From positions 1 through 64,000 of IMG/VR virus record IMGVR_UViG_3300036800_000031: 64,000 nucleotides of DNA. One strand, written 5' to 3'. The notes beneath the pieces were generated by a model. That model saw only the letters and a list, made by a program, of their open reading frames with translations. It did not search any database and was not told where the DNA came from. Made by a program: the position numbers and the translations under genes. The stretch comes from a virus. This document shows positions 38,623 to 51,478 of the stretch, in pieces. Within the stretch, counting starts at the first letter, position 1, and each line of letters starts with the position of its first letter.

Positions 38623-39861
38623 TCAGACCGTGGTGACGTTGCAGAACAGGTCGGGACGGAAGATCATCAGTCCGACCCGCTCTTCGCAGACCATGAGGAT
38701 CTGGTTCAGCTCGGCGTACCGCTCCTTGTAGGTCTCCACGTTGACCTGCTCGCGGTCGGCGATCATGCCGCCCAGCTGGAAGTCGCCGACCAGCGAGGTG
38801 TTCAGCGCCATCGCACGGGTCCGGTAGGTCGGAACACCCCAAACCGTCAGCGGAAGGTCGCTGAAGGGGGTTCCGGCGTCGAACGTGCCCGAGCCGCCCG
38901 CTGCCCGCTTGGTGAACATGTTCCAAGCGTTGGTCGGGTTGAGGACAACCGCCGTCGGGGTGCCGTCGTGGTTCTCCACCTGAGCGAACGCAGCCCCGAA
39001 GGTCTGAGCGTTGTCGGTGTTGACCGCACCCTGCGTCAGCACGCCGTTGGCTCCCAGGACGCCCTGGAGGTCAGGCCAGGTGCCCGAACCGTTCAGGAAC
39101 TCCCAGTCCTCCTTGAAACGGACCAGGTACGGCAGCCGCTGGTTGATGTATTGGATCACGGCCTGGGCGTCCTCGAACAGCTGCTTCGAGATCACCAACG
39201 TGGCGGCGATGACGGTCGGGTCGGCCTTGGCAGCCTGGAAGCTCAGCGTGGCGTTGGGCTTCACTCCACCCTCGGGGACGGCGGATGCCGACTCGTAGTT
39301 GGTGGGGTTGAGTTCCTGGACGTAGGGAATCTGCGCCAGGGTGGTCGTCATCTTCGGGAACAGGTCCCGGAGGAACAACCGTGCCTGCCTCGGCACCGGG
39401 GCGATGGGCTGACCGACCGGGAGCAGGTAGCCCGCTCCAGAGGGGTCAACGCCGGGGGGGCCGGACGAACCAAAGTCCTGCACCGCACGGGTGAGCATCT
39501 GGTCCAGCGTGCCCTTGCCTTCGTAGGCTTCCTCGAAGGGGGCGTTGCGGGTGCCCGAGAGCGCCCACTTCACCATGTCCTCGGAGATGAACATTTCCCC
39601 GAGCGACCGGCGCTCGATGTCATCTTCGGTGCTGCGTGCCCCGCCACCAGCCGTTGCGGCCAGCTTTGCGTTGGCCCGGCGCTCCTCCAACTCGCCCAGC
39701 GTGATCTGAGCGTCAAGCTCATTCACCTTGGCGAACATGGACTGGAGGCGAGCGGAATCCTCATCGGAGCGCACGCCTTCGGGCAGGTCGGCGAACTCAC
39801 GACGGAGGTTTGCGCACTCCTCGTAAAGCTCGTCCAGGTTCAGGGTTGCTGCTTCAGCCAT
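38623..39861 (-). CDS. Major capsid protein, HK97 fold
   Basis: 412 residues. Residues 1-100 are a charged helical delta/scaffold domain (LDELYEECANLRREFADLPEG). The mature fold follows: GYLLPVGQPIAPVPRQARLF, SASAVPEGGVKPNATLSF, TVIAATLVISKQLFEDA (spine helix region), and the A-domain with WGVPTYRTRAM. The prohead protease encoded before the tRNA array would remove the delta domain. AAGAGG precedes ATG 39861. Confidence 0.93.
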   Translation of the reverse strand: MAEAATLNLDELYEECANLRREFADLPEGVRSDEDSARLQSMFAKVNELDAQITLGELEERRANAKLAATAGGGARSTEDDIERRSLGEMFISEDMVKWALSGTRNAPFEEAYEGKGTLDQMLTRAVQDFGSSGPPGVDPSGAGYLLPVGQPIAPVPRQARLFLRDLFPKMTTTLAQIPYVQELNPTNYESASAVPEGGVKPNATLSFQAAKADPTVIAATLVISKQLFEDAQAVIQYINQRLPYLVRFKEDWEFLNGSGTWPDLQGVLGANGVLTQGAVNTDNAQTFGAAFAQVENHDGTPTAVVLNPTNAWNMFTKRAAGGSGTFDAGTPFSDLPLTVWGVPTYRTRAMALNTSLVGDFQLGGMIADREQVNVETYKERYAELNQILMVCEERVGLMIFRPDLFCNVTTV

Positions 39862-40059
39862 GACAGACCTCTTTCGATTGAATCAGGGAACGGACGCCCG
39901 GATAGGCGATCCAACGCTCTCCCGACGGTCAATCGGACCTGTCGTGGGGTGCTGAGGAGAAAGGTAGCGCAAGGAAGGGAGGAGGGTATGGGATACCCCC
40001 GAACGCGAAACGACCGGAGCCTTTTGGACCCCGGCCGAATCGCCTTCACAGTACCTACG
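39862..40059. promoter_or_regulatory. Capsid upstream region with dyad
   Basis: 198 bases between the tRNA array and capsid gene. Contains a perfect palindrome GGGTAT-GGG-ATACCC (39984-39998) and, on the minus strand, TTGACC upstream of CTATCC, a possible weak promoter. A separate promoter here would let capsid be transcribed apart from the tRNAs. Confidence 0.4.
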
Positions 40060-40130
40060 TGGCGGAGGGGAGACTCGAACTCCCGACTTCCTGGTTATGA
40101 GCCAGACGGGCTGCCGCTGCCCTACTCCGC
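40060..40130 (-). tRNA. tRNA-Met(CAT)
   Basis: Cloverleaf with loop CTCATAA, T-loop TTCGAGT and encoded CCA. Acceptor GCGGAG pairs six of seven. Elongator-like, short variable loop. The HNH gene upstream ends inside its 5' strand (stop TAG at 40122). Confidence 0.85.
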
Positions 40131-40661
40131 TGTGCTCATAGAAGCTACCAGGGTGGGCCTACCGATAGCAAGGTATGGCTCCCAAGCGGGGTCTGGCCGG
40201 ATTTTCAGGAGGTGGGCAGCGACGCCCTTGGGCCGGAAAGGGGTGTTGTGAAGTTCCCATCCCAGCGAGTCCAGGGTCTGGTGGCCCTTCTTCTGATTGC
40301 ATCTCCGGCAACAAGCGGTGACGTTCTCCCAGGTGTGCTTTCCACCGAGCGCCCTGGGGACGATGTGGTCGATGGTGCCGTCCTGGCGGACGTCCTTCTG
40401 GCAGTAGCCACACCGGTACCCATCTCGGGCACAGACGTTGGAAGTGATGAGCATGATGCTCCGGTGCTTCTCGGGCATCACGACGTACTTCCGAAGGACG
40501 AGGACCGAGGGGACCATGACCTGAGTAGACGGAGAGCGGAAGACTTCACCGCTGTATTCGATGGGGTCGGCAAGCTCCTCCAGGTAAAGCTCGACAGCAT
40601 CCCGGTCGCGAATGATCGCGAGGGGTTCTCTGCTGGCGTTCAGGAGGAGCGCCCTGTTCAT
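40122..40661 (-). CDS. HNH endonuclease
   Basis: 179 residues. RDGYRCGYCQKDVRQDGTIDHIVPRALGGKHTWENVTACCRRCNQKKG is a full HNH domain with two CxxC zinc pairs and the catalytic His of DHIVPR (near residues 95-140). The N-terminal part (LLNASREPLAIIRDRDAVELY) resembles actinobacterial HNH proteins. Its stop codon TAG is taken from the tRNA-Met 5' strand. Probably a free-standing homing-type nuclease. Confidence 0.88.
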   Translation of the reverse strand: MNRALLLNASREPLAIIRDRDAVELYLEELADPIEYSGEVFRSPSTQVMVPSVLVLRKYVVMPEKHRSIMLITSNVCARDGYRCGYCQKDVRQDGTIDHIVPRALGGKHTWENVTACCRRCNQKKGHQTLDSLGWELHNTPFRPKGVAAHLLKIRPDPAWEPYLAIGRPTLVASMSTAE

Positions 40662-40707
40662 CTGATTCTCGGTCTCTTTGTCATCGTCACTGCTTTCTGG
40701 TTGATTC

Positions 40708-40794
40708 TGGTCTCAGCGGCGGGAGTCGAACCCGCATGGCCGTTCAGGCCAGCCCGTTTTGAGCGGGGTGCGTATTCCGTTCCGCCACGCTGAG
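40708..40794 (-). tRNA. tRNA-Leu(CAA)
   Basis: Class II tRNA with long variable arm, anticodon loop CTCAAAA, acceptor CTCAGCG/CGCTGAG, T-loop TTCGACT and encoded CCA. Decodes UUG. Confidence 0.88.
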
Positions 40795-40812
40795 GTGATC
40801 TGAATAGTCCAA

Positions 40813-40899
40813 TGGTGCGAACGGGGAGAGTCGAACTCCCACTGGGCCGAGCCCACCACAGTCTCAGTGTGGCCTGTCTACCGATTCCAGCACGCTCGC
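40813..40899 (-). tRNA. tRNA-Leu(GAG)
   Basis: Class II, loop CTGAGAC between five-pair stem CCACA/TGTGG, long variable arm, encoded CCA. Decodes CUC/CUU. Confidence 0.88.
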
Positions 40900-40900
40900 A

Positions 40901-40972
40901 TGGTGCCCCCGCCCGGAATCGAACCGGGATCGGCCTGATTAGAAGTCAGAGGACGGATTCCATCCCGAGGGC
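40901..40972 (-). tRNA. tRNA-Arg(TCT)
   Basis: Loop CTTCTAA on stem CTGA/TCAG, acceptor GCCCTCG/CGGGGGC, T-loop TTCGATT, CCA encoded. Reads AGA/AGG, rare in GC-rich hosts. Confidence 0.88.
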
Positions 40973-40973
40973 T

Positions 40974-41044
40974 TGGTACCGGAGCCGAGAATCGAACTCG
41001 GTCGCCACGATTATGAGCCGTGGGCCTGCCCAGCAAATCCGGCA
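40974..41044 (-). tRNA. tRNA-Met(CAT), second
   Basis: Loop CTCATAA on CACGG/TCGTG, acceptor TGCCGGA/TCCGGTA, CCA encoded. Could be elongator Met or, if modified at C34, Ile(AUA); a separate Ile(TAT) makes Met more likely. A small open frame runs into it. Confidence 0.8.
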
Positions 41045-41193
41045 AGATCAGATCGAATCTCCCGTGTGGCCTCTCGCTTCTCCTGGGCACGGGTAATGCG
41101 CTCGGGGCGTAGCCAGGAGTTGACCTCGCACATCCGATGCCCGTGGACAGGGCAGTGTGCGTTGATACCGATGTGCCCACGCATTTTCGCCAT
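41011..41193 (-). CDS. Small His/Cys protein in the tRNA array
   Basis: About 60 residues, MAKMRGHIGINAHCPVHGHR with a basic helical middle (NSWLRPERITRAQEKREATRE). It starts 15 bases past tRNA-His and its TAA lies in the anticodon loop of tRNA-Met. HCPVHGH could bind zinc. Start uncertain (GTG 41199, ATG 41193 or 41184). Possibly a reduced nuclease or accessory of the HNH-tRNA cassettes. Confidence 0.45.
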   Translation of the reverse strand: MAKMRGHIGINAHCPVHGHRMCEVNSWLRPERITRAQEKREATREIRSDLAGFAGQAHGS

Positions 41194-41207
41194 GAGCACA
41201 TCGTAGG

Positions 41208-41283
41208 TGGGGTGGATGAGGGGAATCGAACCCCCTAACAGACACGGTCACAGCGTGCTCCCTCGCCATTTGGGTTCATCCAC
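41208..41283 (-). tRNA. tRNA-His(GTG)
   Basis: Loop CTGTGAC, acceptor GTGGATG/CATCCAC with discriminator C and CCA encoded. No encoded G-1 is apparent, unlike most bacterial tRNA-His. Confidence 0.82.
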
Positions 41284-41285
41284 AG

Positions 41286-41357
41286 TCCACCAGGTAGGGA
41301 TCGAACCTACGACCTTCACTTTGTAAGAGTGCTGCGCTCCCGCTGCGCCACTGGTGG
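41286..41357 (-). tRNA. tRNA-Val(TAC)
   Basis: Loop CTTACAA on CACT/AGTG, acceptor CCACCAG/CTGGTGG perfect, T-loop TTCGATC. CCA not encoded. Confidence 0.87.
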
Positions 41358-41414
41358 TTGATGCTGGGGCCGGAGGATCGTAGGCAGGCCCTTACCTCCC
41401 CTCCGGCCTTAGCG

Positions 41415-41487
41415 TGCCCCCGGCAGGAATCGAACCCGCTCATCCTCCGATTAAAAGTCGGCTGACCTCCCACTGGCCTACAAGGGC
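41415..41487 (-). tRNA. tRNA-Lys(TTT)
   Basis: Loop CTTTTAA on CCGA/TCGG, acceptor GCCCTTG/CGGGGGC, T-loop TTCGATT. No CCA. Confidence 0.87.
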
Positions 41488-41488
41488 A

Positions 41489-41565
41489 TGGTCCCCACCC
41501 TGGGTGTCGAACCCAGTGTCTTCCGAGTATCAGTCGGACGCCTTCACCGTCTGGCCCGATGGGGA
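41489..41565 (-). tRNA. tRNA-Ile(GAT)
   Basis: Loop CTGATAC on CCGA/TCGG, acceptor TCCCCAT/GTGGGGA, T-loop TTCGACA, CCA encoded. Confidence 0.86.
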
Positions 41566-41608
41566 TAAGTCAGGGCGGGATGGCAGCGAACCACCATCAC
41601 CGCCCCGG

Positions 41609-41681
41609 TGCCCGCAGAGGGTCTCGATCCCCCGGCCTTCGGCGTGTCGTGCCGACGCTCTCCCAACTGAGCTATGCGAGC
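41609..41681 (-). tRNA. tRNA-Val(GAC), unusual loops
   Basis: All four stems pair (acceptor GCTCGCA/TGCGGGC, anticodon TCGGC/GCCGA). The anticodon loop is ACGACAC, with C33 instead of the near-universal U33, and the T-loop is ATCGAGA with A54. May be functional with altered loop geometry, or decaying. Confidence 0.7.
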
Positions 41682-41837
41682 TTGGTGGAAACTCTCTCCC
41701 GGTCACGTCTGGCGACCGAACGGCACCGAGAGGGATGAACTCCGATGCTTCACGGTCGGCGGCTTCAGCCACGTTCATCAGCGCGTGACGCCACCCAGCG
41801 ACGTTCCTGAGAAGGAGGAGACAGGCTCCCCCTTCGG

Positions 41838-41910
41838 TGGTTCCCGCCGGGATCGAACCGACGCCTTCCGGGCTTCAACCGGACGCTGCTGCCAACTAAG
41901 CTAGAGAACC
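41838..41910 (-). tRNA. tRNA-Phe(GAA)
   Basis: Loop TTGAAGC on TCCGG/CCGGA, acceptor GGTTCTC/GGGAACC (one wobble), T-loop TTCGATC. Its 3' acceptor strand pairs perfectly with the tRNA 5' half at 42380-42416, showing that an HNH insertion split an older copy and supplied this 5' half. Confidence 0.86.
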
Positions 41911-42368
41911 TTGTTTTTTCTCCCCCGCCAGGTCGGCGTAAGGGCATGGCAGTTGGGGCATAGGATCGCCAGGTTCTCGATCCGGTGATCGTCCTTCACC
42001 CCGTTCATATGGTCAACCTCCAGTGGTATTGGCTGACCCATCCACTGGACCCGCTTGCACTCTTTACATTGACGCTTCCGCCCCTGCGCCAAGAGAATGG
42101 GCAGGAGGTGATAGGTCGGGTAGGTCGAGTTCTCGCAAAAGATTTCCTCCAGCGTGCGCCGACGAAGGGGCGCTCCACGGGTACCAACCCAGGACTGCCC
42201 GGTGAAGTGGCTGACATCGGCCCCAAGCCGCTTTGCATGTCTCTGGACCGAGCCGTAGTTGCCTCCGGCGAGATTAAGGCCGACTCCCCTGACTACCTGC
42301 GCCCAACTGGTCGAGGCGACGATGGCCTCCAGTAGCTCGGAATCGGTCCATGACCTCGGCTTGCCCAT
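41901..42368 (-). CDS. HNH endonuclease inserted in tRNA-Phe
   Basis: 155 residues. N-terminal DNA-binding region (SWTDSELLEAIVASTSWAQ), then a C-terminal HNH: CKECKRVQWMGQ, LEVDHMNGVKDDHRIENL and CPNCHALTPTW. The last codons and the stop TAG come from the 5' strand of tRNA-Phe; ATG 42368 starts just after a tRNA 5' half. Same subfamily as the broken copy at 43866-44301. A homing-type nuclease targeting the tRNA anticodon region is likely. Confidence 0.85.
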   Translation of the reverse strand: MGKPRSWTDSELLEAIVASTSWAQVVRGVGLNLAGGNYGSVQRHAKRLGADVSHFTGQSWVGTRGAPLRRRTLEEIFCENSTYPTYHLLPILLAQGRKRQCKECKRVQWMGQPIPLEVDHMNGVKDDHRIENLAILCPNCHALTPTWRGRKNKVL

Positions 42369-42379
42369 GCCGTAGTCTA

Positions 42380-42416
42380 CCGTTACGGACGCTCTCCCTG
42401 ACTGAGCTAGGGAACC
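42380..42416 (-). pseudogene. tRNA-Phe 5' half (split remnant)
   Basis: GGTTCCC, D-arm GCTC/GAGC and the first bases of the anticodon stem (GTCCG) match tRNA-Phe at 41838-41910, then the sequence changes to that of the HNH cassette. No 3' half follows directly. The break falls in the anticodon arm. Confidence 0.75.
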
Positions 42417-42417
42417 T

Positions 42418-42492
42418 TGGTGCGGCCCGGAGGAATCGAACCCCATCCGAGAGGGCATAAGCCTCTCTGCGGCCACCAGCCGCACGAGCCGC
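42418..42492 (-). tRNA. tRNA-Ile(TAT)
   Basis: Loop CTTATGC on AGAGG/CCTCT, acceptor GCGGCTC/GGGCCGC, CCA encoded. Reads AUA directly, so lysidine modification is not needed. Confidence 0.84.
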
Positions 42493-42493
42493 A

Positions 42494-42566
42494 TGGAGCC
42501 GTCGCTGGGGGTCAAACCCAGCCGGGCGTCGTTACAAAGGACACCTCCGCATCGGGCGGCGACGGC
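42494..42566 (-). tRNA. tRNA-Thr(TGT), divergent
   Basis: Acceptor GCCGTCG/CGACGGC perfect and CCA encoded. Loop TTTGTAA, but the closing pair 31-39 is C-C; D-arm is CCGC/GCGG and the T-loop TTTGACC lacks C56. Anticodon TGT is my best reading. Confidence 0.65.
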
Positions 42567-42567
42567 A

Positions 42568-42646
42568 TGGCTGGGGAGGAGGGCCTCGAACCCCCAAGGA
42601 ATCCTGTTTCAAAGACAGGCGACTTTGCCACTTTGTCTACTCCCCA
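42568..42646 (-). tRNA. tRNA-Gln(TTG)
   Basis: Loop CTTTGAA on CCTGT/ACAGG, acceptor TGGGGAG/CTCCCCA, T-loop TTCGAGG, CCA encoded. U1-A72 is typical for Gln. Confidence 0.86.
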
Positions 42647-42647
42647 A

Positions 42648-42721
42648 TGGAACGGACGAAGGGAATCGAACCCTCATAGTCAGATTGGAAGTCTGACGTT
42701 CTACCGTTGAACTACGTCCGC
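42648..42721 (-). tRNA. tRNA-Gly(TCC)
   Basis: Loop CTTCCAA on CAGA/TCTG, acceptor GCGGACG/CGTCCGT, T-loop TTCGATT, CCA encoded. Confidence 0.86.
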
Positions 42722-42835
42722 ATGGTGGACAGAGAGAAGATGCTCTCGACGTATTACCGCCGTAAGTGTGACCCTCCCCTTTCCCAAGACCGTGGCATTG
42801 CCAGCTTGGGTTAGGCGTCTGCCCAGCGCCATCGG

Positions 42836-42907
42836 AGCGAATGACGGGGGTCGAACCCGCGACCTTCTCGTTGGCAACGAGACGCTCTACCACTGAGCCA
42901 CATTCGC
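42836..42907 (-). tRNA. tRNA-Gly(GCC)
   Basis: Loop TTGCCAA on TCTCG/CGAGA, acceptor GCGAATG/CATTCGC perfect, T-loop TTCGACC. Only CC of CCA is encoded. Confidence 0.87.
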
Positions 42908-42909
42908 AT

Positions 42910-42983
42910 TGGAGGCTGGACCCGGAATCGAACCGGGCTGACGCGGGTTGCAACCGCGCACCTCACCACTCGGCCATCCAGCC
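42910..42983 (-). tRNA. tRNA-Cys(GCA)
   Basis: Loop TTGCAAC on CGCGG/CCGCG, acceptor GGCTGGA/TCCAGCC, discriminator U as expected for Cys, CCA encoded. Confidence 0.88.
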
Positions 42984-42987
42984 AAAG

Positions 42988-43058
42988 CCCCCTCGCTAGG
43001 TAACGATCCCAGTTCTTCCGATTAACAGTCGGACGTGTGGCCTTCACACCGCAAGGGG
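42988..43058 (-). tRNA. tRNA-Asn(GTT)
   Basis: Loop CTGTTAA on CCGA/TCGG, acceptor CCCCTTG/CGAGGGG, D-arm GTGTG/CACAC, T-loop ATCGTTA with A54. HNH gene ends five bases upstream. Confidence 0.75.
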
Positions 43059-43062
43059 AAAA

Positions 43063-43473
43063 TCAAGCCACCACCTGCCGGTTGGCGCACCCACCCATTC
43101 GGTAGATCCGTTTGGCCTCCCTGCATCGGGAACACCGGCAGCCGTTTGGCATGTTGTACCGAGCACCTGTTCCGTGAGGTGGTACCGGCAACTTGTTGTG
43201 TCCACCACCAGAAGCCATATCTCCGGCTTCTTTCCCTTTCTCTATGTGGAGGGCATGGCAAAGAAGTTGACATTTCTCCAACTCGACCAAGAGGTTCTCC
43301 ATCGAGTGAGAGAGCATGTTCGCTATCCCCTCGACCTTTGTAGTCCGGTCGATGTGGTCTATTTCTAGGCGGTCTGTCGTACCGCAACGGACGCATTCAC
43401 CTCCGAGGAAGTCGATAACGAACTCTCGTCGCTTCTTCCGACGTTCGACCATGTAGGTGTTCATATCTGCCAT
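43063..43473 (-). CDS. HNH endonuclease (tRNA-linked)
   Basis: About 136 residues (ATG 43473 or 43479). ECVRCGTTDRLEIDHIDRTTK near residues 25-46, then KCQLLCHALHIEK completes an HNH domain; the C-terminus has a second Cys set (CRCSRCREAKR). Basic N-terminus. Located between tRNA-Asn and a short acceptor-like hairpin, so another member of the tRNA-colonising nucleases. Confidence 0.82.
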   Translation of the reverse strand: MADMNTYMVERRKKRREFVIDFLGGECVRCGTTDRLEIDHIDRTTKVEGIANMLSHSMENLLVELEKCQLLCHALHIEKGKEAGDMASGGGHNKLPVPPHGTGARYNMPNGCRCSRCREAKRIYRMGGCANRQVVA

Positions 43474-43539
43474 CGGCATAGGGGTTAACCGTACTACCGA
43501 CGCCGACTGAGCACCCCCGCCAAGAGGGTCCGGTCAGGA

Positions 43540-43590
43540 TGGTGCCAGGCTTTCCGCCCCACTCGATCCCCGAAGGGTTACGAACCTGGC
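43540..43590 (-). pseudogene. Collapsed tRNA-like element
   Basis: Acceptor-like strands GCCAGGT and GCCTGGC pair over seven positions and are followed by A and CCA, but only 51 bases lie between the ends, too few for a tRNA. Probably the result of an internal deletion. Confidence 0.45.
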
Positions 43591-43602
43591 TGGTGGTCTT
43601 CG

Positions 43603-43674
43603 TAGCGCGTGCGGGTGTTGATCCCGCGGCCTCCTGACTGAGAATCAGGCGTTCTCCCGTTGAACTAACGCGCC
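43603..43674 (-). tRNA. tRNA-Glu(CTC)
   Basis: Loop TTCTCAG on CCTGA/TCAGG, acceptor GGCGCGT/ACGCGCT, T-loop ATCAACA with A54. No CCA. Confidence 0.8.
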
Positions 43675-43675
43675 T

Positions 43676-43750
43676 TGGTACAGCGACGGAGAATCGAACT
43701 CCGATTACCAGGGTGAAAACCTGGCCTCTTCGCCGTTAGAGGATCGCTGC
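43676..43750 (-). tRNA. tRNA-Glu(TTC)
   Basis: Loop TTTTCAC on CCAGG/CCTGG, acceptor GCAGCGA/TCGCTGT, T-loop TTCGATT, CCA encoded. Confidence 0.86.
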
Positions 43751-43816
43751 ATGAAGCTGAGTAGCCGCCACCCCAGGTACCCAGGTGACCAGTGAAGCCC
43801 CGGCGGACTGCCCCGG

Positions 43817-43900
43817 CGGAGAGTACAGGTGTCGATCCCGCGGACTTTCATCCGTATCCCTGCTTTCAAGGCAGGTTCCCAGGCCGCTGGGATACTCTCC
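43817..43900 (-). tRNA. tRNA-Ser(TGA)
   Basis: Class II, loop CTTGAAA on CCTGC/GCAGG, acceptor GGAGAGT/ACTCTCC perfect, long variable arm, T-loop ATCGACA. The frame of the broken HNH gene runs into it. Confidence 0.85.
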
Positions 43901-44301
43901 CTGCTCGGGCTCGAACGGTGTTCTTGCCCTTGTAGGTTTCCGTCTGAGCGTGACAGTTCGCGCAGAGCAGACGGAGATTCTCGATGCGGTGGTCATCGTT
44001 GATCCATCTCCAACGGAGCTGGCTCGCCGTTCCATTCGGTCAGGCCACACCGATCACACTTCGGCTGCTTGATCCCCTCTCGGAGAAGCCGCCGTTTCAC
44101 GTTGCCGGTGCTGTAGGTGGAGTGCTCCACTAGCACCGACTCCAGGGACCTCTGGTTGCCCCGTGGGGTCGCCCACGGCCTCGTGTGGGAGGTCGAGCAA
44201 CTGATGGAGCAGTAGGCCCGCTGGGTCTGAGACAGGAAGTTGTGACAGGAGCCATTCCCGCAAACATGCTGGCTGCGACCAGCGATCGGGAGCCAACTCA
44301 T
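43866..44301 (-). pseudogene. Frameshifted HNH endonuclease
   Basis: Intact first frame from ATG 44301: CGNGSCHNFLSQTQRAYC, LESVLVEHSTYSTGNVKRRLL, KCDRCGLTEWNGEPAPLEMD, then QR and a stop. The next frame continues with DDHRIENLRLLCANCHAQTETYKG, so a short deletion removed the catalytic His segment and the frame. Homologous to the intact gene at 41901-42368. The second frame ends in the anticodon loop of tRNA-Ser(TGA). Confidence 0.8.
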
Positions 44302-44346
44302 GACGACAGCTTACTATCCTGTTCGGGCGACCGAATGGCCGTCCAG

Positions 44347-44429
44347 CGGAAGTGGTCGGGGTCGAACCGACAGGGGCTTTCACCCGTAGACGCTTAGCGG
44401 GCGTCCTGCTCACCATTCGCATCACTTCC
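44347..44429 (-). tRNA. tRNA-Ser(GCT), C33
   Basis: Class II, acceptor GGAAGTG/CACTTCC perfect, anticodon stem GACGC/GCGTC, loop CCGCTAA with C at position 33, long variable arm, T-loop TTCGACC. Reads AGC/AGU. Confidence 0.82.
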
Positions 44430-44433
44430 AAAG

Positions 44434-44501
44434 AACCCCCGCTGGGAATCGAACCCAGCCAGCCGGTTTAGGAAACCAGCGCCCCTTCCACGGGCGAGGG
44501 C
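44434..44501 (-). tRNA. tRNA-Arg(CCT)
   Basis: Loop TTCCTAA on CTGGT/ACCGG, acceptor GCCCTCG/CGGGGGT, short D-arm CCC/GGG, T-loop TTCGATT. Length 68 is at the low end. Confidence 0.78.
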
Positions 44502-44502
44502 A

Positions 44503-44578
44503 TGGAGCCGACAGCCGGGATCGAACCGGCCACCTACGCGTTACGAGTGCGTCGCTCTCCCTACTGAGCTATGTCGGC
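44503..44578 (-). tRNA. tRNA-Thr(CGT)
   Basis: Loop CTCGTAA, acceptor GCCGACA/TGTCGGC perfect, CCA encoded; one A-C mismatch closes the anticodon stem. Confidence 0.85.
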
Positions 44579-44579
44579 A

Positions 44580-44656
44580 TGGAGCCACGACGGGGGATCG
44601 AACCCCGGACCTCCTACTTACCAAGCAGGCGCTCTCCCTGACTGAGCTATCGCGGC
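44580..44656 (-). tRNA. tRNA-Thr(GGT)
   Basis: Loop TTGGTAA on CCTGC/GTAGG, acceptor GCCGCGA/TCGTGGC, T-loop TTCGATC, CCA encoded. Confidence 0.87.
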
Positions 44657-44730
44657 CGGACCGGCTAGACCATCAGCGCCCTTCCGGGTTGATTACGTCA
44701 GGGACGTTGTACACCGTCCTTTTCGCCGAG

Positions 44731-44799
44731 TGGCCAAGGTGGGACTCGAACCCACAGGGCGTTCCTTCGGAGGGATCGCTGCATTCCATCGCCTTGGCC
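44731..44799 (-). tRNA. tRNA-Arg(CCG)
   Basis: Acceptor GGCCAAG/CTTGGCC perfect, T-arm GTGGG/CCCAC, loop CTCCGAA giving CCG. D-arm irregular and anticodon stem has one mismatch, so slightly less sure. Confidence 0.75.
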
Positions 44800-44800
44800 C

Positions 44801-44876
44801 TGGTACCCCCATCCAGGGTCGAACTGAAATCTTCGGTTCCGTAGACCGACGCTCTGATCCATTGAGCTATGAGGGC
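44801..44876 (-). tRNA. tRNA-Arg(ACG)
   Basis: Loop CTACGGA on TCGGT/ACCGA, acceptor GCCCTCA/TGGGGGT, T-loop TTCGACC, CCA encoded. A34 would need deamination to inosine. Confidence 0.84.
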
Positions 44877-44879
44877 AAG

Positions 44880-44993
44880 AAAAAAGCGGACCTCCCACTC
44901 GCAGGCCGGTATGCCTTCCGACCCCGTACACTCGGCTCGGGCACCACCCCTTCGCCACGTCGCAATCATGCTGGTGGTAAGACGGTCCGCTTT
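44880..44993 (-). ncRNA. Candidate structured RNA with terminal T tract
   Basis: A 10-bp stem (AAAGCGGACC with GGTCCGCTTT) closes about 90 bases that contain further pairings (ACCACC/GGTGGT, CCGA/TCGG). On the minus strand the closing stem runs straight into six T. It lies between tRNA-Asp and tRNA-Arg(ACG). Could be a small RNA, or a terminator with a large loop. Confidence 0.35.
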
Positions 44994-45048
44994 CGGGACA
45001 GCCGCCCTGTGGCGGCTTTTCATCGCAGGATTGCCTGCGCATCCCGAG

Positions 45049-45121
45049 CGGTCGTGACCGGTTTTGATCCGGCTACCTCCACCTTGACAGGGTGGCGCTC
45101 TCCCGAGTGAGCTACACGACC
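45049..45121 (-). tRNA. tRNA-Asp(GTC)
   Basis: Loop CTGTCAA on CCACC/GGTGG, acceptor GGTCGTG/CACGACC perfect, discriminator G, T-loop ATCAAAA with A54. Confidence 0.83.
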
Positions 45122-45122
45122 T

Positions 45123-45199
45123 TGGTCCGCTAGACAGGATTTGAACCTGCGACCTCATCGTCCCGAACGATGCGCGCTCCCTAGCTGCGCTACTAGCGG
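45123..45199 (-). tRNA. tRNA-Pro(CGG)
   Basis: Loop TTCGGGA on CATCG/CGATG, acceptor CCGCTAG/CTAGCGG perfect, T-loop TTCAAAT, CCA encoded. Confidence 0.88.
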
Positions 45200-45200
45200 T

Positions 45201-45274
45201 TGGCTCCCCAGCCAAGGGTCGAACTTGGATACCGAGATTCAGAATCTCGTGTGCTGCCATTACACCACCGGGGA
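45201..45274 (-). tRNA. tRNA-Gln(CTG)
   Basis: Loop TTCTGAA on CGAGA/TCTCG, acceptor TCCCCGG/CTGGGGA, T-loop TTCGACC, discriminator G, CCA encoded. Confidence 0.87.
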
Positions 45275-45347
45275 AGGCTGCGGACTCTGCCGCGGGTCAC
45301 GCCTAGTTAGGGTCGGCGTTCACCCATGCCCGGTGATCAGTCGGGAG

Positions 45348-45419
45348 TCGGATACCGGAGAGTCGAACTCCGCTGGGCCTGGCCCCAAACCAGGTGCCTA
45401 ACCGATCGGCATGTATCCG
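45348..45419 (-). tRNA. tRNA-Pro(TGG)
   Basis: Loop TTTGGGG on CCTGG/CCAGG, acceptor CGGATAC/GTATCCG perfect, T-loop TTCGACT. No CCA. Confidence 0.87.
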
Positions 45420-45493
45420 GTGTCGCTGTCTCTCCAGCAGCAACGTCTGGTATCCCCAGGTCTAAGTAGGGGTTCGGGACGACGTTCTCCCGG

Positions 45494-45565
45494 TCGGACT
45501 GGAGGGGATCGAACCCTCGACTTCTCGGCCCCCAGCCGAGCGCTCTACCTCTGAGCCACAGTCCG
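45494..45565 (-). tRNA. tRNA-Pro(GGG)
   Basis: Loop CTGGGGG on CTCGG/CCGAG, acceptor CGGACTG/CAGTCCG perfect, T-loop TTCGATC. Confidence 0.88.
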
Positions 45566-45613
45566 GTGAAACCTGACCCGCTGCCAGTAGACAGTTGCCC
45601 CGGAGGGCTTCAC
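45566..45613 (-). other. Acceptor-like hairpin in tRNA spacer
   Basis: GTGAAGCC pairs with GGTTTCAC over eight positions across a 32-base loop. Looks like a shrunken tRNA or a processing hairpin between Pro(GGG) and Lys(CTT). Confidence 0.3.
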
Positions 45614-45669
45614 ATGCGTGTGCACCTCGCATGAACGACGGAATGGATTATCACCGTCCCGAGTCATTG

Positions 45670-45742
45670 TGCGCCCGGTGGGGTTTGAACCCACGACCTT
45701 GGGATTAAGAATCCCCTGCTCTCCCGGCTGAGCTACAAGCGC
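45670..45742 (-). tRNA. tRNA-Lys(CTT)
   Basis: Loop TTCTTAA, acceptor GCGCTTG/CGGGCGC, D-arm GCTC/GAGC, T-loop TTCAAAC. One mismatch at the base of the anticodon stem. Confidence 0.84.
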
Positions 45743-45743
45743 C

Positions 45744-45828
45744 TGGTGCGTGTGGAGGGAGTCGAACCCTCAGCCCCGAAGGGCACCGCTTCTGGGGCGG
45801 CTGCGTATACCAGTTCCGCCACGAACGC
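45744..45828 (-). tRNA. tRNA-Leu(CAG), C33
   Basis: Class II with long variable arm, anticodon stem GCCGC/GCGGT, loop CCCAGAA with C at position 33, CCA encoded. Two mismatches in the acceptor stem (GCGTTCG/CACACGC). Confidence 0.78.
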
Positions 45829-45863
45829 AGGATGGGCAGTTTTCAGACTTGGCCCAGGTCGCG

Positions 45864-45936
45864 TGGAGCCTACGAGGATCGAACTCGTTACCTCCTGTTT
45901 GCAAAACAGGCGCTCTCCCGGATGAGCTAAGGCCCC
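45864..45936 (-). tRNA. tRNA-Ala(TGC)
   Basis: Loop TTTGCAA on CCTGT/ACAGG, acceptor GGGGCCT/AGGCTCC, T-loop TTCGATC. The G3-U70 identity pair of alanine tRNAs is present. Confidence 0.88.
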
Positions 45937-45942
45937 AAAGCT

Positions 45943-45976
45943 AGGATGCGGGCTGCCATTACACCACCGCAGCCCC
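45943..45976 (-). pseudogene. tRNA 5'-half remnant
   Basis: On the minus strand the D-arm pattern GGTGGTGTAATGGCAGC, as in tRNA-Gln(CTG), follows a GC-rich acceptor-like start, but no anticodon arm or T-arm follows before tRNA-Ala. Confidence 0.5.
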
Positions 45977-46011
45977 CGAGGGGGTGAAAGTTCCCTTGCG
46001 GTTGCTCTCTT

Positions 46012-46045
46012 ACGCGACGTGGAATCGAACCACGACCTCATCCTC
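46012..46045 (-). pseudogene. tRNA 3'-half remnant
   Basis: T-arm CGTGG-TTCGATT-CCACG followed by an acceptor-like GTCGCGT, directly downstream of tRNA-Tyr. No matching 5' strand lies upstream, and it does not pair with the 5' half at 45943-45976. Confidence 0.5.
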
Positions 46046-46046
46046 G

Positions 46047-46125
46047 TCCGCCGCCTCAGAATCGAACTGAGCGTGCTTGCGCGGCTGGTTTACAGCCAGC
46101 CTGGCCCCCTTGGCGCGTGCGACGG
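46047..46125 (-). tRNA. tRNA-Tyr(GTA)
   Basis: Loop CTGTAAA on GCTGG/CCAGC, acceptor CCGTCGC/GCGGCGG, medium variable arm (CGCGCAAGCACG), T-loop TTCGATT. Confidence 0.84.
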
Positions 46126-46129
46126 ATGC

Positions 46130-46210
46130 GGGACGGTCGGTACCCGGGCAACTGCCCGGCCCGTCCCATTTGGACTATTCAGCGTGACGGGTTTTGTTCG
46201 GTACCGTCAC
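46130..46210 (-). other. Two tRNA-spacer hairpins
   Basis: 46130-46167: GGGACGG/CCGTCCC stem with an inner CCGGGC/GCCCGG hairpin. 46184-46210: GTGACGG/CCGTCAC stem with 13-base loop. Both have seven-pair stems like acceptor stems but no other tRNA parts. Possible processing signals or collapsed tRNAs. Confidence 0.35.
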
Positions 46211-46266
46211 TATCGCCTGCTACCTCCCTCACTCGCCATGACGGACGAGGTACTGAGGTTTGAAGC

Positions 46267-46300
46267 ATGGGTGGAGGGAGTCGAACCCCCCTTCACCTCG
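46267..46300 (-). pseudogene. tRNA-Trp-like 3' half (split gene)
   Basis: T-arm (GGGG-TTCGACT-CCCT) and acceptor strand CCACCCA, complementary in six of seven positions to the 5' half at 46724-46761. The two halves are separated by an HNH gene and an intact tRNA-Trp. Confidence 0.7.
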
Positions 46301-46371
46301 CATGGGCGTCAGGAATCGAACCTGATCGGCGAGAGTTTTGGAGACTCTCCGGCTACCTCAGCCTCGCCCAT
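46301..46371 (-). tRNA. tRNA-Trp(CCA)
   Basis: Loop CTCCAAA on GAGAGT/ACTCTC, acceptor ATGGGCG/CGCCCAT perfect, T-loop TTCGATT, discriminator G. The gene lies entirely inside the 3' end of the HNH reading frame, as if carried by that cassette. Confidence 0.86.
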
Positions 46372-46707
46372 ATGCGCTCGGAAGTAGGTGCGATCCCCGT
46401 GGCACAGGGCACACACCACTTCACACTTGGCTATCTCGGCCAGCAGCCGGGCAACCGAAGCCGGAGAATGAGCCATCCGGTTGATACATCGGTCTTTCTC
46501 CTCGTCCCCGAGGTGGTCGAAGTGCATGTTCCAGAACCCGTACTGGATTCCACAATCTGCACAGGGCCGGTTTTTGTGCTCTCGGACTATCGACCGATTG
46601 CGCTCCCGGTACTCGACTACTCGCTGCCGATACTGAGCCTTGTTGTTTCGATAATGCTTCCTCTTGCTCTCCTTCAGTCGTGGATCTTCTAGGTCGAGAT
46701 AGGCCAT
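46309..46707 (-). CDS. HNH-type endonuclease carrying tRNA-Trp
   Basis: 132 residues. Basic helical N-terminus (RLKESKRKHYRNNKAQYRQR), then PCADCGIQYGFWNMHFDHLGDEEK and CEVVCALCHGDRTYFRA, an HNH domain with CxxC pairs. About 20 C-terminal residues are encoded by tRNA-Trp; the stop TGA lies in its T-arm. ATG 46707 begins next to the 5' half of a split tRNA. A typical short mobile nuclease. Confidence 0.82.
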   Translation of the reverse strand: MAYLDLEDPRLKESKRKHYRNNKAQYRQRVVEYRERNRSIVREHKNRPCADCGIQYGFWNMHFDHLGDEEKDRCINRMAHSPASVARLLAEIAKCEVVCALCHGDRTYFRAHMGEAEVAGESPKLSPIRFDS

Positions 46708-46723
46708 GCCCTCAGCGTAGGTC

Positions 46724-46761
46724 CAGTGGAAGCCGCTGCTCTGCCCACTGAGCTACACCCA
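46724..46761 (-). pseudogene. tRNA-Trp-like 5' half (split gene)
   Basis: Acceptor TGGGTGT, D-arm GCTC/GAGC and the anticodon 5' stem AGCGG with CTTCCAC, similar to bacterial tRNA-Trp, then the HNH cassette begins. Pairs with the 3' half at 46267-46300. Confidence 0.7.
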
Positions 46762-46979: not shown

Positions 46980-47621
46980 TCAAGTACCCTGTGCTGCCCG
47001 GCGGCTTGGAAGGCCCATCGTGTTGCCGATCTGCCCGCCGTTCATCCAGTGGTGCCAGGTCCAGGTGCGCTCCGGAAGGTGAGCGATTTTGTACCCGGAG
47101 CGGGCGAGCTTGATGGCGAAGTGGAACTCCTCCCCAGCCCGATTTCCGTCCTCATCCTGACCCGGATCGAGAGGGTCGGTCCCGTCTTCCCAAAGGAACC
47201 CGTTGACCGCCAATGCCGCTTCGGTACGCACGAGGACGGTCACGGTGGTCTGGTGGGGATCGGCCAGATCGAACTCCCGTCCGAAGTTGTCAGGGAAGGG
47301 GTCCGAGCCGCCCATGACGTAGAACCAAGGGAACACCATGTCCGCCCCGGTCTCAATCTGCTTCTCCATCAGCCGTTGGAGGTGGTGCTCCCCGAACTCG
47401 TCGTCGTCATCCAGAAAGGCAACCCACTCGGTGTCCACCATTTCCAAGCCACGGGTGCGGGTGATGGCCGCTCCTACTCCGAAAACGTCGCTGGCGACGA
47501 TCAGCGTATGGGGGAGAACGGTGCCCTTCTGGACGGAAGTAACCGCCCGGCCTAGAAGCTGTGCCCGCTCGGGGATGGTGGTGACGACGACGGTGATCCC
47601 CGGCCTTAGCTGGCTCGACAC
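46980..47621 (-). CDS. Family 2-type glycosyltransferase
   Basis: 213 residues. TVVVTTIPERAQLLGRAVTSV is the nucleotide-sugar strand and VAFLDDDDEF near residue 68 the DxD metal motif; TWTWHHWMNGG near the end resembles the acceptor region. A GT-A enzyme transferring sugar from a nucleotide donor; the acceptor (capsid/tail protein or modified DNA) is not known. Overlaps the HNH gene by 16 bases. Confidence 0.8.
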   Translation of the reverse strand: MSSQLRPGITVVVTTIPERAQLLGRAVTSVQKGTVLPHTLIVASDVFGVGAAITRTRGLEMVDTEWVAFLDDDDEFGEHHLQRLMEKQIETGADMVFPWFYVMGGSDPFPDNFGREFDLADPHQTTVTVLVRTEAALAVNGFLWEDGTDPLDPGQDEDGNRAGEEFHFAIKLARSGYKIAHLPERTWTWHHWMNGGQIGNTMGLPSRRAAQGT

Positions 47622-48247
47622 AGTGATCCCTCCTTGGTCCGTTGGAAATGACGACGGTGCCGCTCGTCAGTTGGGAAAGACCTTCCGCAGGCATCACAAT
47701 AAAACTCCCCCCTGGCTCTATCAGAGCGTTTTCGGGCTGCGTACTTTCGGCTGCTGACATTCCTGCACGTTCTACATGTTCGGTTTCCGTTCGCCCGGAT
47801 AATCGTGTTGCTAAGGGTGAACCTATGACCCCGATTACAACAATCGAGAGCCTTGCGCCTTACTGCTATAGGCGAATGGGGAGCAGGGATAGGGCCTAGC
47901 TCCATGTGTCCAGGGTTCACACAGTGACGCAACCCGCACAAGTGAAGGGGCATTTGTTCGTCGGGTATTGGGCCAACTAAAAGTTGGTAGGCATACTTGT
48001 CAGCCCTGACTGTCTTTGTCGGCCTCCCCTGTCCGGCTCCGAAGATCCCATATCCTGTCCCTGGGTGTACAGCTGCCATCCAGACCCAACAACCGCCTTC
48101 CAGCTGTATATCGACTTTCTCCCAAAACCGTTCCACCGCATCCCTTCGTCGGATCAGATTCCAACACTGGGGGTTACAAAATCTTTGACCACGACGACCC
48201 TGGAACTCATCCCCGCACTGTTCACAGATCAGACTTCGGTCAGTCAT
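47606..48247 (-). CDS. HNH endonuclease in sugar cassette
   Basis: 213 residues. N-terminal zinc motif CEQCGDEFQGRRGQRFCNPQC, central HLCGLRHCVNPGHMELG (HNH core of the HNH_3 type, near residues 105-120), C-terminal CRTCRNVSSRKY and a C2H2-like YCDACGRSF. Such nucleases are usually free-standing mobile genes in phages. ATG 48247 in ATGA overlap, so it fits the operon well. Confidence 0.85.
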   Translation of the reverse strand: MTDRSLICEQCGDEFQGRRGQRFCNPQCWNLIRRRDAVERFWEKVDIQLEGGCWVWMAAVHPGTGYGIFGAGQGRPTKTVRADKYAYQLLVGPIPDEQMPLHLCGLRHCVNPGHMELGPIPAPHSPIAVRRKALDCCNRGHRFTLSNTIIRANGNRTCRTCRNVSSRKYAARKRSDRARGEFYCDACGRSFPTDERHRRHFQRTKEGSLCRAS

Positions 48248-48426
48248 CGTCCGGCGATCTTCTCGGTGAGCTTGTTGCCCGGCTCACAGTCGCGCCCGTC
48301 GTAGTAGTGGGTCATCCCATCGCCAGGCTGGCAGGCGGAGTCGCCCTTCTGCGGACCGTCCAGTTGGTCTGGAACGAACTGCTCGGTTATGCCGCATTGG
48401 CACTTTCTCGGTTTGGCATACCTCAC
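48244..48426 (-). CDS. Small Cys-containing protein
   Basis: 60 residues: MRYAKPRKCQCGITEQFVPD, then DSACQPGDGMTHYYDGRDCEPG. Four cysteines could bind zinc. Start GTG 48426 overlaps the upstream stop; its own stop overlaps the HNH start. Confidence 0.65.
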   Translation of the reverse strand: MRYAKPRKCQCGITEQFVPDQLDGPQKGDSACQPGDGMTHYYDGRDCEPGNKLTEKIAGR

Positions 48427-48800
48427 TTACCCAGTTCCTTCCACGCCTCCAGCGCACCGTCAGCGGCTCGGTCAATCCACTCGTCGTAGTTGACGATTTC
48501 ACATTCCGGGTTGGTGCAATGAGCCAGGTGCTCCGAGGTGATGAAGCACAACGGGCATCGGTCACTCCCGTCTTCGTTCTGGAACATCACCGACATCCCG
48601 ACCGGGCTTTTCATCACGTTTCCGATGATCGCCCAGTGAGCCGACATCAGCGGATCGAAGTTGTCGACGTTAGAGCCGTCTTGGGCCTCCGAGACTAGGT
48701 TCTTCACCGCTTGTTCCCCTCCCTCTGCTACCAGAGAGGAAAGTCCACGAGCGTCAATCGCCGCCCGCAATGCTGACCAGTGGTCGGTGCAGAACTTCAT
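48423..48800 (-). CDS. Conserved phage hypothetical protein
   Basis: 125 residues. MKFCTDHWSALRAAIDARGL with later SVMFQNEDGSDRCPLCFITSEH and HCTNPECEIVNYDEWI: helical N-terminus plus a zinc-ribbon-like Cys set. I have seen this type in many phages without function. Confidence 0.75.
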   Translation of the reverse strand: MKFCTDHWSALRAAIDARGLSSLVAEGGEQAVKNLVSEAQDGSNVDNFDPLMSAHWAIIGNVMKSPVGMSVMFQNEDGSDRCPLCFITSEHLAHCTNPECEIVNYDEWIDRAADGALEAWKELGK

Positions 48801-49684
48801 GCTTTCATCGCCCTTCGGATGCCTTCCTCCAGGGTGACCTTCGGCTGGTAGTAGCGGAACATGAGGTCCGGGTTGGCGCAGCGGTAGAAGGCCCCGGTGG
48901 GCTTCTCAGATCGGGTCTGCATCTTCGGCTTGTATCCGAAGGCGGTGGTGACCATCTCGGCCAAGGTGAGGAGGGAAGTCGGGACGCCCGTCCCCAAGTT
49001 GACCGGGCCTTGGAAGTTGGCCTCCAACATGGCCATCACCGCAGCCACGATGTCGTCAATGTGGATGAAGTCCCGCACTTGGTCCCCGGTTCCCCATACC
49101 GGAAAGGGGTCGGTCTTCTTCATCGCCCGGTCCAGGAAGGCGGTGAAGGGGTAGTCCACGCTTTGGTCGGTGCCGTAGCCGCTGAACGGCCGGAGGACCA
49201 AGATGTCGAGACCTTGGCGCTTCGCCTCACGGGCTTGGACTTCCCCGGTGAGCTTGGTCAAGCCATACATAGCGTCGGGGCAGGCGAGATTGTCCAGGTC
49301 GATTGAGTCCTCCCCGAGCCGCCGGGCCGCTGGGTACCGCTGAATGCTGATCGGGTAGGCGGCGGAGGAGGAGAAGTAGACGATCTTGGTCGGGGGGTTG
49401 CGCAGCGCCCACTGGAAGAACATCGAGTCGATGGCAAAGTCCTGAGCGACCGGCATGTCGTTGTGCTTCCGCTGGTCGATAGGGGGGATGGTGGCGGCGC
49501 AGTGAATGGCGAGGTCGAACTTCACCTCCACCGTCTGGAAGAACTTGATCGCGTCGATGGGTAGCGGCCCCCGGATGTCGAAACCGTAAGCGTCCCACCC
49601 GGTTTTTTCTAGGTAGGACTGGAAATGCCGCCCGACGAATCCGAGGTTCCCGGTGATCAGCGCCGTCTTCCGCTTCCGCCTCAC
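48797..49684 (-). CDS. NAD-dependent epimerase/dehydratase
   Basis: 295 residues. Extended SDR fold: TGNLGFVG near residues 11-18 binds NAD, SSSAAYP gives the catalytic Ser, and YGLTK near 139-143 the Tyr-x-x-x-Lys pair. RPFSGYG and VWGTGDQVRDFIHIDD are typical of nucleotide-sugar 4-epimerases/dehydratases. Probably makes the sugar donor used by the neighbouring glycosyltransferases. GTG start overlaps the methyltransferase stop. Confidence 0.88.
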   Translation of the reverse strand: MRRKRKTALITGNLGFVGRHFQSYLEKTGWDAYGFDIRGPLPIDAIKFFQTVEVKFDLAIHCAATIPPIDQRKHNDMPVAQDFAIDSMFFQWALRNPPTKIVYFSSSAAYPISIQRYPAARRLGEDSIDLDNLACPDAMYGLTKLTGEVQAREAKRQGLDILVLRPFSGYGTDQSVDYPFTAFLDRAMKKTDPFPVWGTGDQVRDFIHIDDIVAAVMAMLEANFQGPVNLGTGVPTSLLTLAEMVTTAFGYKPKMQTRSEKPTGAFYRCANPDLMFRYYQPKVTLEEGIRRAMKA

Positions 49685-50286
49685 GGTTGGACTCCGACGA
49701 TGACCTGGAAGCCGTAACCGTCCGGGTCACTGAGGGCGTGGTGGATCACCTGGAATCCGCCTTGTTCGATCAGCGCCCGGTAGCCGTCCAAATCCCAGGC
49801 CCAAGCGTGGCAGGCGTCGTGGCTCTCGTAAGTCTCAAAGGCCGGGCTGCTGGCGACGATGAACCGGGAGTGGCGACTGATCCGGCGCACGGCGGCGTGC
49901 GGGTCGGGCAGGTGCTCCAGGCACTCGGTGATAATGGTGAGCACGCCCCACTGAATCTCCTCGTGCTCGAAGTCCCGGTGGTGGACGGTGACCCCCCTCG
50001 TATTTTGAGCGTAAGCCACGTTGGCCGGGCTGAGGTCGTAACCCCACCTTTCGACATCCAAGCCGCTTAGAAGGGACAGCAGGCCCCCGTCACCGGCCCC
50101 TAGATCACTAATGGTGGTGATGTCGGGGTAGTGGGCTACCAGGGAGTGAACTTCGACCGCGACGTCCTTCAAGCGGGTGACGTGCGCCCCTTGCTCCAGA
50201 TGAGGAGCGTGCTCACGGGTGTCATACCAAGAGGGGATGAAGAAGTCCGGCGGGTCGGCCGGGTCGTACAGCTGGTGCTCGGTCAT
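49681..50286 (-). CDS. SAM-dependent methyltransferase
   Basis: 201 residues. Motif I ISDLGAGDGG near residue 60, motif II YDLSPANVAYA, then TIITECLEHLPDPHAAV: class I methyltransferase of the type that acts on small molecules or sugars. In this cassette O- or N-methylation of a sugar is likely. It does not show the PCQ and ENV motifs of DNA cytosine methyltransferases. Confidence 0.85.
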   Translation of the reverse strand: MTEHQLYDPADPPDFFIPSWYDTREHAPHLEQGAHVTRLKDVAVEVHSLVAHYPDITTISDLGAGDGGLLSLLSGLDVERWGYDLSPANVAYAQNTRGVTVHHRDFEHEEIQWGVLTIITECLEHLPDPHAAVRRISRHSRFIVASSPAFETYESHDACHAWAWDLDGYRALIEQGGFQVIHHALSDPDGYGFQVIVGVQP

Positions 50287-51450: not shown

Positions 51451-51478
51451 CACGGCTCTCTGTCTAGTTGATATGCGG

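Follow-up and report, generated by a model that had tools for sequence, protein, structure and literature searches.

The 64,000-nucleotide window analyzed here (positions 1–64,000 of the virus record IMGVR_UViG_3300036800_000031, an 89,253-bp phage contig) contains an array of 37 tRNA genes that covers all 20 amino-acid isotypes, is collinear with the array of a distant relative (the IMG/VR contig L011/G001), and has retained its anticodons and stems despite near-saturated sequence divergence. We regard the array as a functional, selected, phage-encoded tRNA repertoire, and with somewhat better than even confidence as one that most likely provides a near-complete second pool against the loss of host tRNAs. 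Coordinates refer to the window, and those on L009 are given together with their record equivalents.

At its default threshold, ARAGORN reported 34 tRNAs within 40059–46371, all on the minus strand, and a Val-CAC tRNA at 51477–51556. The 90% threshold added Arg-TCT (40902–40973) and Arg-CCG (44730–44800), giving 36 tRNAs within the array, and the 70% threshold was useless. The 37th tRNA, Thr-TGT (42494–42566), was missed by ARAGORN and drawn by eye; it has a 7-bp acceptor, a 5-bp T arm, a UGU anticodon loop, and a C-C mismatch at the loop base, and its slot matches the position of an intact Thr-TGT in G001. The array comprises four tRNAs for Arg, three each for Leu, Pro, and Thr, two each for Gln, Glu, Gly, Ile, Lys, Met, Ser, and Val, and one each for Ala, Asn, Asp, Cys, His, Phe, Trp, and Tyr, a list identical to that of the first-pass annotation, which had folded 37 cloverleaves for all 20 amino acids. 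The general tRNA covariance model of Rfam accepts 28 of the 37 at its gathering score. The nine members below this score are Met (40974), Ile-TAT, Thr-TGT, Ser-GCT, Arg-CCT, Arg-CCG, Pro-TGG, Tyr, and Trp; eight of them, including Tyr and Trp, are matched by a tRNA with the same anticodon in the same slot of G001, and Arg-CCG alone has neither Rfam support nor a counterpart there. The reversed, uncomplemented 89-kb sequence yields no tRNAs with ARAGORN, which excludes a chance origin. With approximately 5.9 tRNAs per kb (37 in 6.3 kb), the array is a viral tRNA cluster as defined by Morgado and Vicente (at least 15 tRNAs at a density of at least 2 per kb). A promoter scan across the array gave 2 matches versus 1.8 expected.

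The array is flanked by a glycosyltransferase gene (46980–47621) and the major capsid gene (38623–39861). G001 (29.7 kb, capsid 65% identical) carries an array at the same site, with 39 tRNAs at the ARAGORN 90% threshold, two CTA tRNAs among them, and the flanking proteins of the two phages are collinear at 31–65% identity. By anticodon, 33 of the 36 ARAGORN tRNAs are collinear between the arrays, versus a mean of 9 and a maximum of 14 for shuffled orders. The matched tRNA bodies are on average only 59% identical, versus 57% for same-anticodon tRNAs of an unrelated array. In the stems of the matched pairs, 266 two-sided changes kept the pairing and 26 pairs were broken (shuffled 3' partners: 110 kept and 309 broken), a statistic that is biased upward, since ARAGORN reports paired stems only, and to that extent argues less strongly for our interpretation. 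The bias is limited, however, because hardly any slot is empty in either phage, which leaves little room for decayed tRNAs that escaped notice. The retention of order, anticodons, and fold during sequence turnover points to selection for function. Two arrays are compatible both with bodies that diverged at their sites and with bodies that were exchanged for others. The new element is the extent of tRNA-body divergence with order and anticodons retained. The near-universal U33 is absent from three tRNAs here (Val-GAC, Ser-GCT, and Leu-CAG, each with C33) and from three in G001; this is notable and would fit the anticodon-loop changes, relative to host tRNAs, that the van den Berg hypothesis of defence-evading phage tRNAs expects at nuclease cleavage sites.

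The members of the array and associated elements, all on the minus strand (−), are as follows (G001 slot, counterpart in the same slot of the relative).

40059–40131 (−): tRNA-Met (CAT); ARAGORN, Rfam 60.8 bits; last in the array before the capsid gene
40122–40661 (−): HNH endonuclease 1; Pfam HNH_5 3e-17, PHROG; kept in the relative (47%)
40708–40794 (−): tRNA-Leu (CAA); ARAGORN, Rfam, G001 slot
40813–40899 (−): tRNA-Leu (GAG); ARAGORN, Rfam, G001 slot
40902–40973 (−): tRNA-Arg (TCT); Rfam 31.6 bits, ARAGORN 90%, G001 slot
40974–41043 (−): tRNA-Met (CAT); ARAGORN, G001 slot
41208–41283 (−): tRNA-His (GTG); ARAGORN, Rfam, G001 slot
41285–41357 (−): tRNA-Val (TAC); ARAGORN, Rfam, G001 slot
41414–41487 (−): tRNA-Lys (TTT); ARAGORN, Rfam, G001 slot
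41489–41564 (−): tRNA-Ile (GAT); ARAGORN, Rfam, G001 slot
41607–41681 (−): tRNA-Val (GAC), C33 in loop; ARAGORN, Rfam; not in the relative
41836–41910 (−): tRNA-Phe (GAA); ARAGORN, Rfam, G001 slot
41901–42377 (−): HNH endonuclease 2; PHROG 1.6e-40
42386–42416 (−): 5'-half tRNA remnant (Phe-like) beside HNH 2; local alignment, 0 of 60 shuffles as good
42418–42492 (−): tRNA-Ile (TAT); ARAGORN, G001 slot
42494–42566 (−): tRNA-Thr (TGT), degenerate anticodon stem; by eye, fold, G001 slot
42568–42646 (−): tRNA-Gln (TTG); ARAGORN, Rfam, G001 slot
42648–42721 (−): tRNA-Gly (TCC); ARAGORN, Rfam, G001 slot
42834–42907 (−): tRNA-Gly (GCC); ARAGORN, Rfam, G001 slot
42910–42983 (−): tRNA-Cys (GCA); ARAGORN, Rfam, G001 slot
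42987–43058 (−): tRNA-Asn (GTT); ARAGORN, Rfam, G001 slot
43063–43479 (−): HNH endonuclease 3; PHROG 1.7e-32
43602–43674 (−): tRNA-Glu (CTC); ARAGORN, Rfam, G001 slot
43676–43750 (−): tRNA-Glu (TTC); ARAGORN, Rfam, G001 slot
43815–43900 (−): tRNA-Ser (TGA); ARAGORN, Rfam, G001 slot
43993–44301 (−): HNH endonuclease 4, probably truncated or frameshifted; PHROG 1.3e-8
44346–44429 (−): tRNA-Ser (GCT), C33 in loop; ARAGORN, G001 slot
44433–44503 (−): tRNA-Arg (CCT); ARAGORN, G001 slot
44503–44578 (−): tRNA-Thr (CGT); ARAGORN, Rfam, G001 slot
44580–44656 (−): tRNA-Thr (GGT); ARAGORN, Rfam, G001 slot
44730–44800 (−): tRNA-Arg (CCG), weakest member; ARAGORN 90% only; no counterpart in the relative
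44801–44876 (−): tRNA-Arg (ACG); ARAGORN, Rfam, G001 slot
45048–45121 (−): tRNA-Asp (GTC); ARAGORN, Rfam, G001 slot
45123–45199 (−): tRNA-Pro (CGG); ARAGORN, Rfam, G001 slot
45201–45274 (−): tRNA-Gln (CTG); ARAGORN, Rfam, G001 slot
45347–45419 (−): tRNA-Pro (TGG); ARAGORN, G001 slot
45492–45565 (−): tRNA-Pro (GGG); ARAGORN, Rfam, G001 slot
45669–45742 (−): tRNA-Lys (CTT); ARAGORN, Rfam, G001 slot
45744–45828 (−): tRNA-Leu (CAG), C33 in loop; ARAGORN, Rfam; the relative has Leu-TAG in the same slot
45863–45936 (−): tRNA-Ala (TGC); ARAGORN, Rfam, G001 slot
45948–45969 (−): 5'-half tRNA remnant (Gln-like); local alignment
46013–46044 (−): 3'-half tRNA remnant just downstream of Tyr; local alignment
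46046–46128 (−): tRNA-Tyr (GTA), long variable arm; ARAGORN, G001 slot
46265–46290 (−): 3' half of split tRNA, CACCCAT pairing with the 5' half; local alignment, sequence
46300–46371 (−): tRNA-Trp (CCA), D arm reduced (in the relative too); ARAGORN, G001 slot
46309–46707 (−): HNH endonuclease 5, 3' end overlapping tRNA-Trp; PHROG 1.1e-19
46722–46755 (−): 5' half of split tRNA-Trp (ATGGGTG...TTCCA), upstream of HNH 5; local alignment, sequence
51477–51556 (−): tRNA-Val (CAC), outside the array; ARAGORN, Rfam

Two further observations concern individual parts of the array. The Met tRNA nearest the capsid gene has an initiator-like trait in each phage, namely an A1-C72 mismatch here (40059–40131) and three G-C pairs in the anticodon stem of its G001 counterpart (L011:9556–9628). 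A strong nested hairpin (GGGACGG...CCGTCCC) lies at 46130–46167, between tRNA-Trp and tRNA-Tyr, and may serve as a signal for processing or pausing.

With ordinary wobble allowed, the set covers 55 of the 61 sense codons, which make up about 90% of codon occurrences; left unread are mainly GCC/GCT (Ala-TGC being the only Ala tRNA) and TCC/TCT. This coverage, with no reader for the most-used codon and no RtcB ligase found, argues against a full, self-sufficient set. Such a broad set fits the replacement of a damaged host pool better than the correction of a few rare codons, and its wide rather than codon-biased composition fits the published hypothesis of tRNA-cleaving defence and the corresponding phage experiments. 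Both tRNA-depletion defence and phage tRNA counter-measures are supported by published work (PMC10264068, PMC13096335). Under this scheme, the array would supply a nearly complete second tRNA pool, late protein synthesis would continue while host tRNAs are cleaved, degraded, or outcompeted, and codon adjustment would be a secondary benefit. From the sequence we infer that the tRNAs would be expressed and charged and would serve against tRNA depletion; the replacement of depleted host tRNAs is plausible, and a near-complete repertoire kept in order by selection fits the resistance to host tRNA depletion suggested at first reading.

Several observations weigh against this interpretation. Neither GCC (5.7% of codons, the most used) nor TCC has a reader by ordinary wobble, and the missing GCC reader implies dependence on the host. 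RtcB, peptidyl-tRNA hydrolase, and an RF1 domain were not found; RNA ligases other than RtcB were not searched. The relative L123 (capsid 61% identical) has the same flanking genes with no tRNA and other open reading frames in the slot, so the array is dispensable in some hosts. Finally, four of the five gains and losses between the two arrays track codon use, as expected if the tRNAs raise the supply for codons that are common in the phage and rare in the host. The four concordant cases (this phage versus G001, per 1000 codons) are Arg-CCG (CGG, 21.6 versus 8.1), Val-GAC (GTC, 32.1 versus 26.4), Leu-TAA (TTA, 0.2 versus 1.3), and Leu-TAG (CTA, 2.9 versus 5.6), whereas Ser-GGA goes the wrong way, and these usage differences are confounded by G+C content (62.5% versus about 58%). 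Codon compensation also sits poorly with a set that covers nearly everything, abundant codons included, yet leaves the commonest codon unread. We regard it as a possible but rather unlikely main purpose.

The array is an accessory trait. A capsid-profile search for relatives returned only five, and besides G001 all were short or array-less: L121 (78–79%) shows no tRNA within the 1.9 kb available, and the only tRNA seen in L124 (52%) is one for Met, immediately upstream of the capsid gene. Among the terminase relatives, most lack tRNAs; arrays occur in two, with about 20 and 33 members. A shared array order with the larger of these (G013, 33 tRNAs) was rejected, the longest common subsequence being 11 versus 8.6 expected by chance (maximum 13). 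At the DNA level, cultured phages gave no copy of the same array, only scattered tRNA matches. In another terminase relative, G005 (L109–L112, L116), 21 of 130 TGA stops are flanked on both sides by coding-like sequence, a pattern that may hint at TGA read-through but comes from a contaminated gene model.

Five HNH homing-endonuclease genes lie in or adjoin the array (Pfam, PHROG), and these probably mobilize and reshuffle it. The 5' tRNA half upstream of HNH 5 breaks off in a CCA anticodon loop. Its acceptor strand is matched at 7 of 7 positions by that of a 3' half, which lies downstream, past HNH 5 and the intact tRNA-Trp that adjoins this gene. Similarly, a Phe-like 5' half stands beside HNH 2, upstream of the intact tRNA-Phe. 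The pattern resembles homing events in which a tRNA gene is invaded and a substitute tRNA is delivered. A 5'-half remnant suspected by eye near HNH 3 was unsupported by local alignment. G001 has no matching remnants beside its HNH gene, and the remnant-type alignments found there are mostly weak and not lined up with HNH genes. In a further, rather improbable reading, pressure from host tRNA-cleaving defence would keep the tRNA bodies within an ordered set of anticodons in constant turnover, by replacement or by forced divergence at their sites. Part of this turnover would come from HNH-tRNA cassettes that break a resident tRNA near the anticodon and supply an intact tRNA of matching type; the tRNA-Trp halves around HNH 5 would then be one such event caught in the genome. 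The same genes and adjoining half-remnants, together with the close relatives that lack an array, could also indicate selfish or neutral cargo, i.e., tRNA cassettes that are spread by HNH endonucleases and persist by mobility with little benefit to the phage. This appears improbable, since neutral cargo would decay, whereas the 33 collinear tRNAs kept their anticodons and stems through near-complete turnover, and HNH 1 alone is shown to be conserved in the relative.

Two tandem CTA tRNAs are located outside the window at record positions 72098–72241 (L009:8098–8241; ARAGORN 90%), on the plus strand, nearly all genes being on the other; Rfam gives the second of these tRNAs 54 bits. They lie 26 kb away from the array here and within the array in G001. 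No transfer-messenger RNA (tmRNA) was detected in the window or record by Rfam or ARAGORN, and that of G001 lies within its tRNA array (L011:3988–4364; tag EDNTSIADEATAWLAEQSLIAA; confirmed by Rfam). Just upstream of the CTA tRNAs, a tRNA-like element at record 72028–72097 (L009:8028–8097) has a 7-bp acceptor, a T arm, and a CCA end, with no D arm and with a short hairpin with a 4-nt loop in place of the anticodon arm. That the full set and the paired CTA tRNAs of both phages support TAG read-through, in a phage moving towards or regulating amber recoding, is highly improbable: the three confidently called TAG-ending genes of G001 do have a second stop within 4 codons (p about 0.02–0.09; 3–4 genes only), but this enrichment is absent here, the TAG of the G001 capsid gene falls at the homologous C-terminus, CTA tRNAs are already known in 44 of 55 cluster-bearing mycobacteriophages (PMC6409571), and TAG recoding in this phage was rejected, as the 9,232 codons examined from large genes include no in-frame TAG and 15 of 123 genes use TAG as a normal stop.

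Nearly all predicted protein genes of the record are on the minus strand, including those for the portal, a MuF-like head protein, the prohead protease, major capsid, tape measure, and terminase. The nearest cultured terminases are those of Streptomyces phage TurkishDelight (50%), for which no tRNA array is annotated, and Actinoplanes phage phiAsp2 (46%); the host of this tailed phage is likely an actinobacterium. The TTA codon is nearly missing (4 of 24,560 codons of the whole record), below the expectation from G+C alone, a scarcity resembling that of actinobacteria with TTA-based regulation. An integrase (PF00589) was searched for in the record and not found. A Tet/JBP-family oxygenase gene at 3423–4235 suggests modified DNA bases, and glycosyltransferase, epimerase, and methyltransferase genes at 46980–52635 may form a sugar-modification module. 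The protein encoded at 55055–61684 is 2,209 residues long and has a NUDIX-like segment close to its N-terminus; the upstream gene has a TAG stop in frame with it.

Cluster M mycobacteriophages have fewer tRNAs than this array, and the tRNA region of T4/T6 has about ten or fewer. The former (Bongo, PegLeg, and Rey; cited in PMC5966550) resemble this phage in genome size (Bongo, 80 kb) and in having adjacent HNH endonucleases, proposed as diversifiers; the latter also has a homing endonuclease within its tRNA cluster, SegB (PMC13096335), which is a GIY-YIG rather than an HNH enzyme. The first-pass remark that a full amino-acid set is rare even in tRNA-rich phages holds insofar as such sets are uncommon, but precedents exist (PMC6409571, PMC5852040, PMC5966550). 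A 2019 survey of viral genomes described clusters of 15–37 tRNAs, the largest equal in size to this array, and eight with all 20 isotypes (PMC6409571). Xanthomonas phage XacN1 likewise covers all 20 amino acids, with 56 tRNAs carried on the 66-kb terminal repeats of its jumbo genome of 385 kb (PMC5852040), compared with 37–40 in an 89-kb contig, mostly within 6.3 kb, here. A close parallel in content is provided by cluster C mycobacteriophages (G4 group; Rizal-like), with about 33–36 tRNAs, all 20 isotypes, selenocysteine (SeC) and Pyl anticodons, the latter being the CTA tRNA, and a tmRNA in the array (PMC5966550, PMC10264068). The tmRNA is matched by G001 only, and the CTA tRNAs lie outside the array in this phage, which belongs to a different lineage with no close cultured relative and with no peptidyl-tRNA hydrolase or RF1 found.

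Full-isotype arrays with CTA tRNAs, tmRNA, and HNH genes are thus already documented in mycobacteriophages and elsewhere, and what deserves further attention is the comparison of collinear arrays at near-saturated divergence, together with the split tRNA-Trp. With the present array, full-repertoire tRNA arrays are also known from an uncultured phage lineage that is probably actinobacterial. The distant collinear pair and the array-less relatives make the codon-compensation and defence hypotheses comparable. Order, anticodons, and stems that outlast nearly all sequence identity are hard to reconcile with neutral cargo and bear on the purpose of phage tRNAs.

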